Shown one piece after another: positions 4,137-55,133 of a DNA stretch of 64,000 bases. The notes beneath the pieces were generated by a model. That model did no database searches. It saw nothing but the letters and a program-made list of their open reading frames with translations, and was not told the origin of the DNA. This DNA comes from Halohasta salina (lineage in GTDB: Archaea > Halobacteriota > Halobacteria > Halobacteriales > Haloferacaceae): NCBI RefSeq assembly GCF_024178165.1, contig NZ_JAMZIE010000002.1, forward strand, positions 62,001 through 126,000, read 5' to 3'. Each line of letters starts with the position of its first letter. Position 1 is the first letter of the stretch. The position numbers were made by a program, and so were the translations under genes.

Positions 4137-4735
4137 AGTTCTTCGACGCTACCACCGTCGGGCCGCTCGCGGTAGACCTGCCCTTCGAACAGCGTGATCA
4201 TGGTGTCGTCGTCCTGCCACGCCATCGGCGAGACATCGGCTTTTCGGCAGACGAGGGAGAGGTACTTCTCCTTGCTCCAGTTCTGTTCGACCGGCAGTGT
4301 CGGATACAGCCACGCGTGTTTGTTGCCGGTGTCGATGGCGACGCCGTGGGTGCCGAGTTCAAGGTCTTCGAGCGGGTCGTTTGTAAGTAGGGTGTTGCTA
4401 ACGACACAGACCGAAATCGAGAGGTCGTCCAGTTCCTTCGAGCCGATCTCCGAGCCCGCCGAATCGGCCGAGGCAGCCTGAATGGCGGCGTCGACGATGG
4501 CGTGGCCGAGCTGATCGGAGCCCTGATAGGCCCCGGCACAGCCGCGGAGTCGTCCCCGTCCGCGTGTCGACTGGATCCGGACGAACGCGCCCGTTCTCGC
4601 ATAGAACGCATCCCGCATACTACCGGGCTGCTCGCGCTGACCGTGGAGAACGTACGATTCTACCGCTTCCCGTGCAAGCTCGACTGCTCGTGCACCGTCA
4701 TCATAGCTCAGCTGAACGGTCTGTGCCTCGGACAT
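4133..4735 (-). CDS. AMMECR1 domain protein
   Basis: A 200-residue soluble protein of the AMMECR1 family (TIGR00296-type). The family hallmark GRLRGCAGAY appears near residue 75 (usual form LRGCIG), and the C-terminal half carries the conserved PLEDLELGTHGV and LYPTLPVEQNW stretches. AMMECR1 proteins occur in archaea and eukaryotes; their reaction is not established and a role in radical or RNA chemistry is only proposed. The ATG at 4735 is preferred over an upstream start at 4765. The stop overlaps the convergent nicotinate phosphoribosyltransferase stop. On the other side lies the promoter of the RNase P RNA. Confidence 0.85.
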   Translation of the reverse strand: MSEAQTVQLSYDDGARAVELAREAVESYVLHGQREQPGSMRDAFYARTGAFVRIQSTRGRGRLRGCAGAYQGSDQLGHAIVDAAIQAASADSAGSEIGSKELDDLSISVCVVSNTLLTNDPLEDLELGTHGVAIDTGNKHAWLYPTLPVEQNWSKEKYLSLVCRKADVSPMAWQDDDTMITLFEGQVYRERPDGGSVEEL

Positions 4736-4820
4736 AACAGTATCGATGACCGGCACCGACTTCAATTCTTCCCATTTGTTTAGAACAGAGTAACCGGCCT
4801 CGGATCGCCCGACCGAACGG

Positions 4821-4830
4821 GTTATGTAAC
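4821..4830 (+). promoter_or_regulatory. Probable TATA box for RNase P RNA
   Basis: GTTATGTAAC is centred about 24 bases before the predicted 5' end of the RNase P RNA at about 4849, the usual TATA distance in archaea. The assignment rests on spacing and A/T content only. Confidence 0.45.
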
Positions 4831-4848
4831 GCCTACTCGTAGTATCTC

Positions 4849-5297
4849 CGGGTAGAGAGAGCCCGACTCCCGTGGGGGTTCAACCCCTATGAGGAAAGTC
4901 CCCCCACCGTTCGGACAGGTGACCGGGCCCACGCCCGGAGTCGGAGACGGCTGGCACTGAAACAGAAACGAGACCACCCGTGTCGACCGATGATGTGCGT
5001 CCGGCCGCCGACGGCGGCCGACGGCGCTTGCGGCCCTGCCGCGAGCGCGCGAACCGACCCGTAAGGGAAGGGAGTTAACCCACAGAGGGCGTGGTGCCAC
5101 GCACCACGTTTGCGAGCGGGCTTTGCCCGCGAGCCGACACACGGGAACGGATGGAACGGTGAATCCTCACCGGTGCAAGTCCGCGTCAGACGACCGACCG
5201 GCCGTTTCGGTCGGTCGTCGAGGTAGTCCGAACACGACGACGGACGCTCAGCCGAATGTCGGGTCGAAACAGAAGGGGGCTTACTCCTCTCAGCCCG
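4849..5297 (+). ncRNA. rnpB: RNase P RNA (archaeal type A)
   Basis: About 449 nt matching the catalytic RNA of RNase P, which removes tRNA 5' leaders. The 5' conserved region reads GAGGAAAGTCCCCCCACC near 4890, and the distal conserved region reads CAGAAGGGGGCTTACTCC near 5270. These are the two strands that build helix P4 and its surroundings. The ends pair as helix P1: CGGGTAGAGAG from 4849 with CTCTCAGCCCG ending at 5297. Internal GC-rich hairpins, for example around 5197-5220, fit P12/P16-like arms. A short T-run follows at 5298-5301. The ends are set from P1 pairing and could be off by several bases. Confidence 0.93.
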
Positions 5298-5366
5298 TTT
5301 TACTCGCCGAGCGGCCGCACCGCCAAACGGACGTGCTTTTAGGTATGCACCAGCTACCTACGGAAT

Positions 5367-6338
5367 ATGATTTTCGAGAGCCTCCCGACGACACCCCGGT
5401 CGGAGGAACTCATCGACAAGGCCTTCTCACGGGCCGCCCGCTCGGGCAAGGCCAAAGGCGGCCTCGAAGCCCAGCAGTCGATGCTGACGATCGCGGTCAA
5501 CATCACCTCCGACAACCTCGAAAACGTCGTCACCGCGTGGCCGGATTTCGACTACGTCGACCCCTTCTACTACGAGTTGGCTGATGCCATCGTCGACGTC
5601 GACGAACTCCGGCAGTCACTGTCGGAGGTCACGTGGGCGAGTCGACAGATCGAGGAGCTCGGCCGGGAGTACCAGCCCAAACTCCGGAAGACCGATCCCG
5701 AGGTCGCGCGCAAACACCGCAAGCAGGCCTTCGCCCGGATCGCCGACATCATGGACGAGATCAAAGACGACCTCCGGGCGGTCGGTGACGCCCGCGATGC
5801 GCTCAAAGACCTCCCCGATATCCGCCCGGACGAGCCGGCCATCGTCATCGCGGGCTACCCCAACGTCGGCAAGTCCTCCTTCGTCAACCACGTCACCCGG
5901 GCCTCCAACGAGATCGCCGAATACCCCTTTACAACGCGGGGTGTCCAGATCGGCCACGTCGAGCGTGACCACATCCGATACCAGCTGATCGACACGCCGG
6001 GGCTACTCGACCGACCCGAGGAAGATCGGAACGACATCGAGCGGCAGGCTGTCGGCGCGATCGAGCATCTGGCCGATACGATCCTGTTTTTCCTCGATGC
6101 CTCCGGCGACTGCGGCTACCCCCTCGACGTCCAGTTGGAACTCCGCGACTCGGTCGAAGCCCGGTTCGCCGAGCGTGACATCCCCGTGTTGACGATCTGT
6201 AACAAGAGCGACCGGTCGACCGACGTCGCGGCCGACGCCTACATGAGCGTCACCAACGACGAGGGTGTAGAGGAGGTGCTCGATCTCGCCATCGAGGCGG
6301 TCGGCTTCGAGCCCGACCTCCCCTCACGCGAGGAGTAA
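5367..6338 (+). CDS. Nog1-family GTPase
   Basis: A 323-residue P-loop GTPase of the Obg/Nog1 group, probably acting in large ribosomal subunit assembly. An alpha-helical N-terminal domain of about 160 residues (NOG1 N-type, with a charged helical part up to LRAVGDARDALKDLP) precedes the G domain. G1 is GYPNVGKSS near residue 168, switch I/G2 is YPFTTRGVQIGH, G3 is DTPG, and G4 is NKSD near residue 280. The ATG at 5367 lies about 70 bases after the RNase P RNA. The gene may therefore share upstream transcription with that RNA, which would place two translation-apparatus functions together. Confidence 0.88.
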   Translation: MIFESLPTTPRSEELIDKAFSRAARSGKAKGGLEAQQSMLTIAVNITSDNLENVVTAWPDFDYVDPFYYELADAIVDVDELRQSLSEVTWASRQIEELGREYQPKLRKTDPEVARKHRKQAFARIADIMDEIKDDLRAVGDARDALKDLPDIRPDEPAIVIAGYPNVGKSSFVNHVTRASNEIAEYPFTTRGVQIGHVERDHIRYQLIDTPGLLDRPEEDRNDIERQAVGAIEHLADTILFFLDASGDCGYPLDVQLELRDSVEARFAERDIPVLTICNKSDRSTDVAADAYMSVTNDEGVEEVLDLAIEAVGFEPDLPSREE

Positions 6339-51781: not shown

Positions 51782-52576
51782 TCACCGGTTGATCGGGGTC
51801 AGCAGGTGGTGGACGAACACCACGACCCCATTGGTCTCGCCGGCCGCACAGATCGCCCGCTCGTTGTCGCCGGTCGGCGTCGGGGTCGTCCGAACCAGCG
51901 CCCGTCGGCCGTCGACCAACAGGAGCGACGAGAGTACGGCTTCGGCCGACGGCAGGGCGACGGGAGGAAAGCCGAGTTCGTCGACCGGCGAGACGTCGAT
52001 GCCGAGCGAGTCGACGGCCGGAACATCGGGCGTCGAGAGCCCGTCGTCGTCGATCACGCCGGCGGCAGTGGTCACGCCGCGGTCGGCAGCGGCCGCCAAC
52101 TCGCCGGCTACCGAGTCGTCGACCCCGGTGGCGGCGAGCAACCGGACCTCGCTGTCGGCCGCCGACAGCAGCCGCTCGATTCTGGTGGTGATCGCTTCCG
52201 CGCCGGACAGACTCCACACCTCCGTCTCGACGTCGGTCGTCTCTTCGAGAGTGATGGGATCGATCGTTTCCAGCGACTCCTCGACCGACCGGAGCCGCGA
52301 TTCGTAGGTTCGACGGAGCGTGTCGACGGCCTCGGAGATTTCGACCGCGCGAAACACCTGTGGGTTGGTGTGTTGGACCGTGACGAGTCCGTTCGTTTCG
52401 AGGACTTCGACGGCGTCGTACACCCGTGTTCGCGGCACGTCGCTGATCTCGCTGATCTCCCGGGCGGTTGCCTGTGGCACCCGCGAAAGCGCCACGAAAC
52501 ACTGGGCCTCGTACGTCTTCAGTCCGAACTGCTGTAGCTGTTCGACAACGTCTGCGGAGGTACCGGTATCGTTCAT
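51782..52576 (-). CDS. TrmB-family transcriptional regulator
   Basis: A 264-residue regulator. The N-terminal winged HTH is QLQQFGLKTYEAQCFVALSR and ATAREISEISDVPRTRVYDA (helix-turn-helix, about 12-70), typical of TrmB. A coiled segment VDTLRRTYESRLRSVEESLE links to a ligand-sensing domain (about 120-264). TrmB proteins regulate sugar or central-metabolism genes. The ATG at 52576 matches the family start; the upstream start at 52651 is unlikely. Two divergent genes share 337 bp. The target could include its own operon with the CBS gene. Confidence 0.82.
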   Translation of the reverse strand: MNDTGTSADVVEQLQQFGLKTYEAQCFVALSRVPQATAREISEISDVPRTRVYDAVEVLETNGLVTVQHTNPQVFRAVEISEAVDTLRRTYESRLRSVEESLETIDPITLEETTDVETEVWSLSGAEAITTRIERLLSAADSEVRLLAATGVDDSVAGELAAAADRGVTTAAGVIDDDGLSTPDVPAVDSLGIDVSPVDELGFPPVALPSAEAVLSSLLLVDGRRALVRTTPTPTGDNERAICAAGETNGVVVFVHHLLTPINR

Positions 52577-52913
52577 GGGTCCCAACCATCGCCGGCTGAA
52601 CCGGCATGACCTGTGCGTTGTTACCGAATACAAAAATGAGTTGGCTTTCATGACAACACTGAATCAAAATCGGCGCTGGCAGTCGCCCCACACCACGCCG
52701 CGTCCGACCGCTGAGTATGTAACTCGAATAATCACATATTAGTGCCCGTTTTGCATACGTTCGCCCGTGGTACGCCGCCGGTATCCCGGTCCCAACCAGC
52801 TACCGAGCGTACCACGGGCGTGACTGCCCACCGTACAGTCACGCTTCGACCGGTGTCGACGCCGGCATGCACAACCGAATTCCTTTATATACTCGCGGTC
52901 GTTCATTTGTACA
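52577..52913. other. Intergenic region between TrmB regulator and acyltransferase
   Basis: 337 bp holding promoters for two divergent genes. TTTATATA at 52884-52891 is the TATA for the acyltransferase. No ORF is supported here. Confidence 0.5.
52884..52891 (+). promoter_or_regulatory. TATA box of the acyltransferase gene
   Basis: TTTATATA is centred about 26 bases before the ATG at 52914, the spacing of a leaderless archaeal transcript. Confidence 0.6.
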
Positions 52914-53867
52914 ATGACGAAGCGACACGTGTCTCTACCCGCGGACGCGGCCGTGGGTGTCCGAGGGTTCATCGACGAGGTCGACGAGCGGTTGTCCTCG
53001 GACGAAGAGACCTGCGCGGTCGTCGAGGACGTGCTGGTCGACCTGTTCGGCGACAGACAAGCCTACGAGGCCTGGCAGGCCGGCCAGTCGGTCTCGCCGG
53101 CGACCAGAGTTCGTCTCCAGGGGTACGACCCATGCAACGCGACCGTCGAAGCCGAGTACTACGCCGAGAAAAACGAGGAGAAGTTCCAGCGATCCAAACA
53201 CCTCCAGTGGCTCTGGCGACAGTTCGACGCGACGCCGATGGCCGACAACGTCGAGTTCGCCCTCCAGTTCCGTCGGATGCTCGCCGATCACCTCTTCGAG
53301 GAGTGCGGTGACAACTGCCGCTTTTTCAAGGGAATCACGTTCACCTACGGCCACAACATTTCCGTCGGCGACAATACCGTAATCCACGATGACGTCCACC
53401 TCGACGACCGCGGCAAACTCACTATCGGCGACCGGGCGTCGATCTCCGACGGCGTCCACATCTACAGCCACGACCACGACGTCGTCGACCAGACTGCGGT
53501 TCGGAACTACCACACCGTCGTCGAGGACGATGCCCGTCTCACCTACGACGCGATGATCCGAGCGGGCTGCCGCATCGGCGAGAACGCCATCGTCGGCGCT
53601 CGCGCCGTGGTTCAGGGCGACGTGCCCGACCACCACGTGGCCGTCGGGATGGCGGCCAAGAGCGTCAAAATCAAACCCGGCTGGGAGTCGGCAGCCGAAC
53701 CGGTCGACGACGGTCGACTCCCGAATCGGCAGGCCGACCGCGAGATCGAATACGAGATCGACAACGAGATCGAGATCTTCGACGAGTTCCAGCGGTCGCT
53801 GTCGCCGCCGGACGCCGAGCCAGCGATCCCCGACGAGCCGGACCCCAACCAACCGGACGCCGAGTAA
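52914..53867 (+). CDS. Left-handed beta-helix (hexapeptide) acyltransferase
   Basis: A 317-residue acyltransferase of the LbH family (maltose/galactoside O-acetyltransferase-like). After a helical lead of about 125 residues, hexapeptide turns appear: GHNISVGDNTVIHDDVHLDD and LTIGDRASISDGVHIYSHDHD (catalytic His region), then AGCRIGENAIVGARAVVQGDV. It should transfer an acetyl group to a sugar or small molecule. The C-terminus is an acidic Pro/Asp/Glu-rich tail, probably flexible. It is followed after 12 bp by the Nmad3-like gene, so they likely form an operon. Confidence 0.82.
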   Translation: MTKRHVSLPADAAVGVRGFIDEVDERLSSDEETCAVVEDVLVDLFGDRQAYEAWQAGQSVSPATRVRLQGYDPCNATVEAEYYAEKNEEKFQRSKHLQWLWRQFDATPMADNVEFALQFRRMLADHLFEECGDNCRFFKGITFTYGHNISVGDNTVIHDDVHLDDRGKLTIGDRASISDGVHIYSHDHDVVDQTAVRNYHTVVEDDARLTYDAMIRAGCRIGENAIVGARAVVQGDVPDHHVAVGMAAKSVKIKPGWESAAEPVDDGRLPNRQADREIEYEIDNEIEIFDEFQRSLSPPDAEPAIPDEPDPNQPDAE

Positions 53868-53879
53868 CCACCCCTGCCC

Positions 53880-54620
53880 GTGGCCAAAAGTATCGCGATC
53901 AACGTCGCTGCCAACACCAACCTCCCGGGGTTTCGTGGCCCGATCTACCCCGACGGGCAGTTCGTCTACCTCCCGATCCCCGAACGCGAACCGACCGTCG
54001 AGACGGTGCCGACGTACGGCGACCTCCTCCCGAAGCTCGATCCGCTGCCGTTCTCGGTCGACGACAACCTCCACGACCGGCGGGTTCATCTCGATCCGGA
54101 GTTCGCCGAGTATCCCGCCTGCAGCCGGTACACCTACGGCGACGAACACGGCGTCAAAGCCGGGCCGCTGGCGGCGTTGGAGCCGGGCGACTCGCTGTTC
54201 TTCTATGCCACGCTCACCCGCCACGAGCCACCCGCCGGGGTCGACACCGGTCCGCCGGTCGACTGGGTGGCTCCCGACTGGGGTGCGTATCTGATCGGCG
54301 AGTTCCGCGTCGACCGCGTGTTCGATGCCGAGGCCTGTGCCGACCTCTCGGCGTTCGATCGCCACGGCGTCGCATCCAACGCCCATTGCGAGCGCGACCC
54401 CTTCGACGCGAAGGTGCTGGTGGTCGGCACCGACGACTCGCGGCTGTTCGACCGGGCGGTCCCGCTGAGTGCTCCCGAGGCGGGTGCCACCGCCAACCGA
54501 CTCGTCACGGGCCTCTCGAACGACTCCGGGAAGGGACCGTGGTGGCGTCGACGCCTGTGGTTCGACGCCGAGGCGACCGACCGGCTCCGAGCGATCGTCG
54601 ACGGCGAGGTCCCGATTTGA
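53880..54620 (+). CDS. Nmad3-like putative nucleotide-modification-associated protein
   Basis: A 246-residue soluble protein starting with GTG at 53880, 12 bp after the acyltransferase. It begins AKSIAINVAANTNLPGFRGP. The PACSRYTYGDEHGVKAGPL part (near residue 80), ASNAHCERDPFDAKVLVVGT and SNDSGKGPWWRRR blocks look strongly conserved. The best recollected match is the Nmad3 family, predicted from gene neighbourhoods to act in nucleotide or base modification. No phage or restriction genes are near. The link to the acyltransferase suggests a modification using an acyl or acetyl group, an inference only. Confidence 0.5.
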   Translation: MAKSIAINVAANTNLPGFRGPIYPDGQFVYLPIPEREPTVETVPTYGDLLPKLDPLPFSVDDNLHDRRVHLDPEFAEYPACSRYTYGDEHGVKAGPLAALEPGDSLFFYATLTRHEPPAGVDTGPPVDWVAPDWGAYLIGEFRVDRVFDAEACADLSAFDRHGVASNAHCERDPFDAKVLVVGTDDSRLFDRAVPLSAPEAGATANRLVTGLSNDSGKGPWWRRRLWFDAEATDRLRAIVDGEVPI

Positions 54621-54713: not shown

Positions 54714-55133
54714 ATGCCGAGTAGCGACGACCTACTTAAACGGCCGGTCGTCCCGATCGCCGGGGAGGACGACGCCGCGGCGACCTATCCCGCGCTGGTC
54801 GCCCACGGTGATCCCGCGGTGTGTCGACCGCTCGTGATCCACGTACTTGGCGAGGACGCACCCGAAGCCGAGACAAACCGTGCCCACGAGGCAATCGAGC
54901 GGTTCGAGTCGCTGGCGGCCGCCGACGGAATGACGGTCGATTCCGAACTGTCCCACGGCGACTCGATCGTCGACACTATCTTGGAGGCCGCCGAGGCAGC
55001 CGACGCCTCGGCGGTCGTCTTCTGTTCCCGCGGCGGTAGCGCGTGGTTCGATCTCTTGGCGGGCGGCGTGCGGACCTCGCTGCTCGCCAAAAGCGACACC
55101 CCGGTCGTGATGCTCCCCGTCGAGGGCCAGTAG
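54714..55133 (+). CDS. Universal stress protein (UspA family)
   Basis: A 139-residue protein with the UspA alpha/beta fold. VVPIAGEDDAAATYPALV is the first strand, lacking the usual VLVAVDGS start. The C-terminal nucleotide-binding-type part is VFCSRGGSAWFDLLAGGVRT and AKSDTPVVMLPVEG, which fits the G-x2-G-x9-G pattern only loosely, so ATP binding is unsure. It lies 93 bp after the Nmad3-like gene on the same strand. Confidence 0.75.
   Translation: MPSSDDLLKRPVVPIAGEDDAAATYPALVAHGDPAVCRPLVIHVLGEDAPEAETNRAHEAIERFESLAAADGMTVDSELSHGDSIVDTILEAAEAADASAVVFCSRGGSAWFDLLAGGVRTSLLAKSDTPVVMLPVEGQ

Follow-up and report, generated by a model that had tools for sequence, protein, structure and literature searches.

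ACYL and NMAD3, two genes that lie one behind the other in Halohasta salina, are best explained as a single transcription unit of two haloarchaeal genes that are unrelated, have been retained by vertical descent and do not form a dedicated pair, an interpretation to which we give somewhat better than even chances. ACYL is an LbH O-acetyltransferase of the maltose/galactoside/WcaF type, which would move an acetyl group from acetyl-CoA onto a sugar or glycan hydroxyl. NMAD3, a putative stand-alone member of the PUA superfamily, would bind a modified base or nucleotide of RNA or DNA in its barrel pocket, so that its part would be that of a reader or adaptor and not of a modifying enzyme; its fold is predicted and its binding role deduced. 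The adjacency of the two genes would be an inherited gene order.

If the fold is read correctly, nearly all haloarchaea carry on the chromosome a gene of base-reader shape whose family is named for nucleotide modification, and EVE, the customary reader, is close to absent from them. The ACYL–NMAD3 pair in itself is of little importance.

The two genes and their surroundings

The window, i.e. the whole 64,000-nucleotide stretch of DNA that was analysed, belongs to a genome of 25 contigs, and the features discussed here are collected in Table 1. ACYL and NMAD3 are separated by 12 bases, the gap that an earlier note on this DNA had given. Homologues in relatives reach 82% identity for NMAD3 and 89% for ACYL, so we regard both as genes and not as chance open reading frames. 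The TATA-like TTTATATA is likely to be the promoter for both of them, as judged from the sequence. No AT-rich octamer is found within 120 bases upstream of NMAD3 or within 120 bases upstream of USP; a TATA-like box before ACYL and none before NMAD3 would fit a single transcript, and co-transcription of the two genes in this genus is probable.

Table 1. Features of the ACYL–NMAD3 locus, with positions in the window
Feature	Position	Strand	Description
TrmB-type regulator gene	51782..52576	-	PF01978, 3e-20; divergent, upstream of ACYL; start codon possibly at 52651
TATA-like TTTATATA	52884..52891	+	AT-rich octamer, 30 bases upstream of the ACYL start codon
ACYL	52914..53867	+	Open reading frame, 317 aa, ATG start
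NMAD3	53880..54620	+	Open reading frame, 246 aa, GTG start
USP	54714..55133	+	Universal stress protein (Usp) domain gene; PF00582, 3.6e-7; downstream of NMAD3, 93-base gap

A Pfam search named the genes around NMAD3 as ACYL, TrmB, CBS, Usp and GatD; among the loci read, USP adjoins NMAD3 only within the genus. PADLOC, applied to 10 of the 17 called genes of the 47–61 kb region, found no defence system and no match for ACYL or NMAD3, and its partial matches in two putative regulator genes look like common DNA-binding (HTH) parts. These results agree with the chromosomal setting, free of nearby phage and restriction genes, that the earlier note had described.

The families to which that note had assigned the two proteins also stand, as both ACYL (Hexapep, PF00132) and NMAD3 (Nmad3, PF18754) score above the Pfam cut-offs. 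For ACYL the match (4e-9, 36.2 bits against a cut-off of 27) identifies a left-handed beta-helix (LbH, hexapeptide) acyltransferase, in which an N-terminal part of ~100 residues is followed by an LbH core (residues 117–252). Its NCBIfam neighbours are WcaF, HpsU, EpsC and the maltose (MAT) and galactoside (GAT) O-acetyltransferases, all of them far under the curated cut-offs (NF007797, 72.2 bits of 192; WcaF, 51.1 of 326; MAT (NF007499), 50.4 of 314; GAT, 48.4 of 347), and by these cut-offs ACYL does not belong to the WcaF, maltose or galactoside O-acetyltransferase equivalogs. Among PDB chains, it matches those of MAT and GAT at 1.6e-12 to 4e-10; the top matches are 3srt, 2ic7 and 4egg (1.6e-12 to 3.9e-12), with maltose O-acetyltransferases as the closest solved structures (1.6e-12).

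Across 94 sequences, in which some genomes appear twice, 100 of the 317 positions of ACYL are at least 97% identical, and H182, H186 and H188 are each at least 97% conserved. In the alignment with the maltose O-acetyltransferase 3srt, His188 falls on the IYxxxHP motif His, which we take to be the catalytic His of maltose/galactoside-type LbH acetyltransferases. GH68 (levansucrase/invertase) genes lie near ACYL in some genomes (an 11-gene cluster, of which one member was tested), a hint that sugars or glycans may be its substrate. By family and motif ACYL is an LbH O-acetyltransferase, and acetylation of sugars or glycans would be its most likely reaction, with the substrate our own deduction.

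Conservation of the gene order and other placements of Nmad3

Both genes have strong matches in 35 of 60 relatives, and 26 of these 35 carry them within 2.1 kb of each other on one strand. The remaining nine have them apart, four of the nine on different contigs of draft genomes. A strong ACYL match with no strong Nmad3 match occurs in 11 of the 60 relatives and the reverse in two. Named genomes also yielded 138 Nmad3 loci; we took the best 80, in 74 of which the gene was called. ACYL lies upstream of Nmad3 on the same strand in 53 of these 74 loci, with gaps of 5 to 2826 bases, and is the most frequent Nmad3 neighbour, followed by ZnR (31 loci), AKR (29, on the opposite strand) and NadE (29); Halobacterium salinarum DSM 3754 (locus L144) has the arrangement too. 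Between the two genes, 22 of the 53 linked loci have no called gene, 27 have DUF7577 (a small membrane/zinc-ribbon gene) and/or GSDH (a glucose/sorbosone dehydrogenase gene) and four have something else.

DUF7577 (tested in one case), a small protein that ends in a zinc ribbon, is encoded close upstream of Nmad3 in 31 of the 74 named loci (e.g. L112 and L138). It has an apparent membrane segment and is present with or without ACYL nearby.

Retention of the pair was compared with that of control pairs, which are neighbours in the same window, few in number and hand-picked, not random. ACYL and NMAD3 are linked in 24/33 genomes with both, control 1 in 25/33 (counting any copy of its first gene, which has paralogues; 22/33 with the best-scoring copy only) and control 2 in 15/30. 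Outside the genus, the figures are 20/29, 21/29 (18/29 with the best copy) and 11/26, respectively. An S2P/HemE control was set aside (linked in 2/8, with HemE found in at least 8/33 genomes). Since ACYL–NMAD3 is kept like control 1, conservation does not single it out; with so few controls, this means only that the pair, at the upper end of the range, is not clearly outstanding. The earlier note had named conservation in haloarchaeal neighbourhoods as a check on the pair. The pair does recur (26/35 relatives, 53/74 loci), but the view that this recurrence marks a functional modification pair is not supported (24/33 against controls at 25/33, or 22/33, and 15/30). Conservation as proof of pair function was dropped after this comparison.

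Nmad3 also has other companions. In putative Natrialbaceae (family f7, so named because one member is 96–97% identical to a Natronorubrum record), a divergent Nmad3 is followed within 1.51 kb by a gene that we call ACYL2 in 36 of the 54 genomes with both; in the other 18 the two are apart, many on different contigs. ACYL2 encodes a YvoF-like LbH acyltransferase of 178 aa, with heptaprenylglyceryl phosphate O-acetyltransferase as its best NCBIfam match (136 bits of 300). It is present in 56 of the 60 relatives; of 38 that were checked, only 2, members of family f7, have it within 2.1 kb of Nmad3. Nmad3 is found behind DapD in four loci, directly in L243, L245 and L250 and, in L241, after two small called genes that intervene; DapB is upstream in all four. 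The names were tested in L250 only, where models matched DapA, DapB, DapD (281.9 bits against 204) and LysA; the DapD proteins of L241, L243 and L245 are 91–96% identical to that of L250. Elsewhere Nmad3 stands behind TgtA (tested in L255), directly behind RibAB–RibH (lumazine synthase; L236, L240, L274 and L275, tested in L274) or before a ThiC-like gene (by eye), and NadE neighbourhoods also house it (29/74 loci).

Further genes were seen at individual placements. In the four riboflavin-linked loci, all of genus g61, a DtxR-type regulator gene comes next. In L087:4598-6213, a gene (4598-5488) for a 296-aa protein that matched neither Pfam (1e-3) nor NCBIfam (1e-5) runs into the start of a second, divergent Nmad3 gene, and look-alikes of this protein are encoded upstream of Nmad3 in L264–L266. 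Directly upstream of Nmad3 in L109, L116, L121 and L127, which come from three Halobaculum genomes and one MAG, is an inosine triphosphate-type pyrophosphatase look-alike (by eye).

The presence of ACYL, the YvoF-like protein and DapD beside three Nmad3 clades is more than expected by chance, according to a rough, post hoc estimate in which an LbH neighbour has a chance of ~0.6% per placement (12 matches in this genome correspond to 9 distinct hexapeptide genes, and ~3,000 genes are assumed) and three were seen in ~18 placements counted by eye. Together with the rank of ACYL as top Nmad3 neighbour, these three LbH acyltransferases weigh against our reading of two separate genes. They would suit a writer–reader pair, in which NMAD3 binds a nucleobase, tRNA or nucleotide that ACYL has acylated: ACYL is the commonest neighbour, always upstream and on the same strand (53/74), and the divergent Nmad3 sits beside a YvoF-like LbH protein (36/54 Natrialbaceae) and DapD (four loci). 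GNAT acetyltransferase–EVE fusions and the proposal of DNA-base acetylation by Iyer et al., both in an excerpt of PMC7641849, add to this side. We nevertheless hold such a pair to be improbable. Its retention is no clearer than that of the control pairs, the genes are apart in 9/35 relatives (4/9 on different draft contigs), 11/60 relatives have a strong ACYL match and no strong Nmad3 match, and ACYL2 is close to Nmad3 in just the two f7 relatives of 38. The LbH partners also differ in their likely substrate (sugar, lipid and tetrahydrodipicolinate), which implies that they have no chemistry in common. The functional modification pair proposed in the earlier note is not borne out: some of the 60 relatives have a strong match to only one of the two genes, a zinc-ribbon and/or GSDH gene stands between them in 27 of the 53 linked loci, and Nmad3 elsewhere lies beside riboflavin, lysine, TgtA and (by eye) ThiC genes.

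The variety of cofactor and amino-acid neighbourhoods, i.e. RibAB–RibH, DapA–DapB–DapD, the ThiC-like gene (by eye) and NadE (29/74), would be accounted for if NMAD3 bound a small, cofactor- or nucleotide-like metabolite and tuned biosynthetic operons. However, these neighbours have no common pathway and are housekeeping genes, next to which any gene that moves could end up, and the fold matches described below are mostly nucleic-acid binders, so we give metabolite binding a low probability.

The Nmad3 family and its predicted fold

The Nmad3 family takes its name from an association with nucleotide-modification genes, and the original Nmad description reportedly appeared in NAR in 2013. That context (nucleotide- or base-modification or phage genes nearby) is absent at the NMAD3 locus, and it is a matter of context, not of sequence. 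NMAD3 is a single-domain protein and a full-length member of PF18754 (Nucleotide modification associated domain 3; 2e-51, 175.4 bits against a cut-off of 27), its residues 3–233 covering positions 1–242 of the 247 in the profile. Pfam and NCBIfam searches matched it to no catalytic family, and the Pfam search gave no match to EVE (PF01878) at E up to 1. Among Halobacteriales, Nmad3 exceeds the cut-off in 237 of 293 genomes, which represent 69 of 81 genera, against none of 14 named control genomes; it is a near-core chromosomal gene of the order. No study of a haloarchaeal Nmad or of the ACYL–NMAD3 pair was found by title in a limited open-access literature. A phage Nmad5 as an anti-defence protein is the topic of PMC11846954.

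The name might also suggest that the pair is a remnant of phage or defence base modification. The scan of viral contigs gave one distant Nmad3 match (L171:4962-7791; 466 aa, 28% identity), next to and converging with a ParB-fused N6/N4 DNA methylase gene, and a 30%-identical protein of a C. necator plasmid is encoded not far from a gene for a restriction endonuclease. The predicted, unvalidated defence domains of DefensePredictor include one of the nucleotide modification associated domains, as an excerpt of PMC13092281 has it. On the other side, NMAD3 has no match at E 0.01 among 50,697 phage records and none in PADLOC, and Nmad3 is near-core in Halobacteriales; a remnant is therefore a very improbable origin. 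The phage search with a divergent Nmad3 also gave no match. Against PHROGs, NMAD3 matched a family without known function (1e-8) and, at 0.035, one of baseplate-hub proteins.

In a midpoint-rooted FastTree tree of 79 Nmad3 sequences, the ACYL-linked haloarchaeal clade stands apart from the divergent clade with its many placements. Fifteen columns are invariant in 43 sequences of both clades (window numbering: F28, P32, I33, P34, H70, D72, P73, T85, D104, F108, Y109, N167, H169, G183 and S197), R172 is kept in 41 of the 43, and F28, Y30, F108 and Y109 are each conserved in 42 or 43.

An AlphaFold model of NMAD3, built from 32 sequences, has a pLDDT of 93.1 and a pTM of 0.91. Its best Foldseek match is 6p0f, the N-domain of T. 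gammatolerans McrB (E 1.7e-3, probability 0.97), followed by 6p0g, the EVE protein PH1033 and THYN1. A second model, for the divergent clade (43 sequences, three of them from the first clade), has a pLDDT of 91.9 and a weaker Foldseek list, with a best E of 4e-2 and also Lon, RetS and other chains; neither model has a Foldseek match at E ≤0.001. VIA, which only re-ranks Foldseek matches, placed all 50 listed rows for the NMAD3 model (the best 50 of 152 with Z ≥2) among EVE, YTH, ASCH, VcaM4I and McrB-N chains, with 2p5d first (Z 8.1, 137 aligned residues, 4.2 Å). For the second model, 49 of 50 listed rows (the best 50 of 174) fall in the EVE/YTH/ASCH/McrB-N group, with a best Z of 6.9; one listed row, 2kku, could not be placed. 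The Z values of both models are middling, in a range where the match may be no more than a common arrangement, as the tool itself warns for Z under 8. Titles name YTH, ASCH, VcaM4I, THYN1/DUF55, Mmi1 or McrB in 43/50 and 42/50 listed rows, and we take the remaining 7/50 and 8/50, whose titles name no domain, to be EVE and similar chains, apart from 2kku. That 2eve is an EVE chain is stated in an excerpt of PMC7897488. The models suggest, with moderate confidence, that NMAD3 has a PUA-like (EVE/YTH/ASCH) fold, which is persuasive because neither listed VIA set contains a clearly unrelated fold.

Profile comparison was less telling. With hhalign, the Nmad3 profiles matched 32 archaeal EVE domains at probabilities of 2–10%, which is not significant. 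With two of the three Nmad3 profiles EVE ranked first among 20 targets, again not significantly, and for the third, from divergent Nmad3, a cupin-like control cluster ranked above it (12% vs 2%). A short Nmad3 motif, YGDxxGVKxxxLxxLxPGDxLxFY, was aligned to WGVPxRxKNxIxRVKPGDKLLIY of EVE. Sequence homology between Nmad3 and EVE was dropped on these grounds.

The invariant residues bear on a further alternative, that NMAD3 is an enzyme on nucleotides or nucleic acid (e.g. an ASCH-like RNase or a base modifier) unrelated to ACYL. H70, D72, D104, N167 and H169, with R172 in 41/43, would suit an enzyme as well and so weigh against a reader; Y109 is likewise invariant. ASCH domains of Z. mobilis, presumably nucleases, are among the VIA matches of both models. 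A plasmid-borne Nmad3 whose neighbours include QueC-like and PfkB/nucleoside deoxyribosyltransferase genes, described below, also speaks for an enzyme. Yet NMAD3 has no catalytic family match, and binding domains, chiefly YTH, make up most of the listed structural matches, so an enzyme seems unlikely to us, if less so than the other alternatives weighed here. We favour the reader for NMAD3. The earlier note had seen a modifying protein in it; the predicted fold looks more like that of a base binder or reader, and ACYL resembles sugar or glycan O-acetyltransferases.

The plasmid gene in question lies on pHOS300 of Halorientalis sp. IM1011 (L172:6998-10925) and encodes an Nmad3 with ~200 extra C-terminal residues. 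It adjoins a QueC-like PP-loop gene and a PfkB/nucleoside deoxyribosyltransferase gene, and the group is possibly a plasmid-borne nucleotide-modification cluster.

Comparison with known systems

With the maltose/galactoside/WcaF-type acetyltransferases, ACYL has in common the LbH core, the top PDB matches and the aligned, conserved His188; it differs from them in its scores below the cut-offs and in the extra N-terminal part of ~100 residues, which is conserved in haloarchaea. NMAD3 matches the Nmad3 family (PF18754) over the full length; it differs in that its gene is a near-core chromosomal one with ordinary metabolic neighbours.

The EVE/YTH/ASCH/McrB-N readers (PH1033, THYN1, the VcaM4I EVE domain and T. 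gammatolerans McrB-N) are the listed structural neighbours of Nmad3. Unlike them, NMAD3 has no Pfam EVE match, is ~100 residues longer and carries motifs of its own (PIPE, HxDP and NAHxxR). VcaM4I has an aromatic and hydrophobic pocket for a flipped modified base, formed by P24, W82 and Y130 (PMC7897488, in excerpt). EVE (PF01878) was detected in only 2 of the 60 relatives; across the phylum, 97 of 295 genomes have it, with 90 above the cut-off. The Haloferax volcanii control genome shows the reverse of the Halobacteriales pattern, in which Nmad3 is common and EVE rare. It is conceivable, at long odds, that Nmad3 is the haloarchaeal stand-in for a near-absent EVE, a core reader of a modified base that was repeatedly recruited to places next to LbH acyltransferases (ACYL, YvoF-like and DapD), whose acylation of a base, tRNA or nucleotide would make the mark that it reads.

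The genomic contexts of EVE are strikingly diverse, a diversity of the same kind as that of Nmad3, and the word Nmad is absent from the main text as excerpted (Bell et al., 2020; PMC7641849). The GNAT–EVE and PIN–GNAT–EVE proteins in the same excerpt resemble our gene pair in that an acetyltransferase is coupled to an EVE-type reader. With them in view, an acetyl link would not be absurd; in them, the acetyltransferase is a GNAT and not an LbH enzyme, the two parts are fused in one protein, and the contexts are those of defence and prophages.
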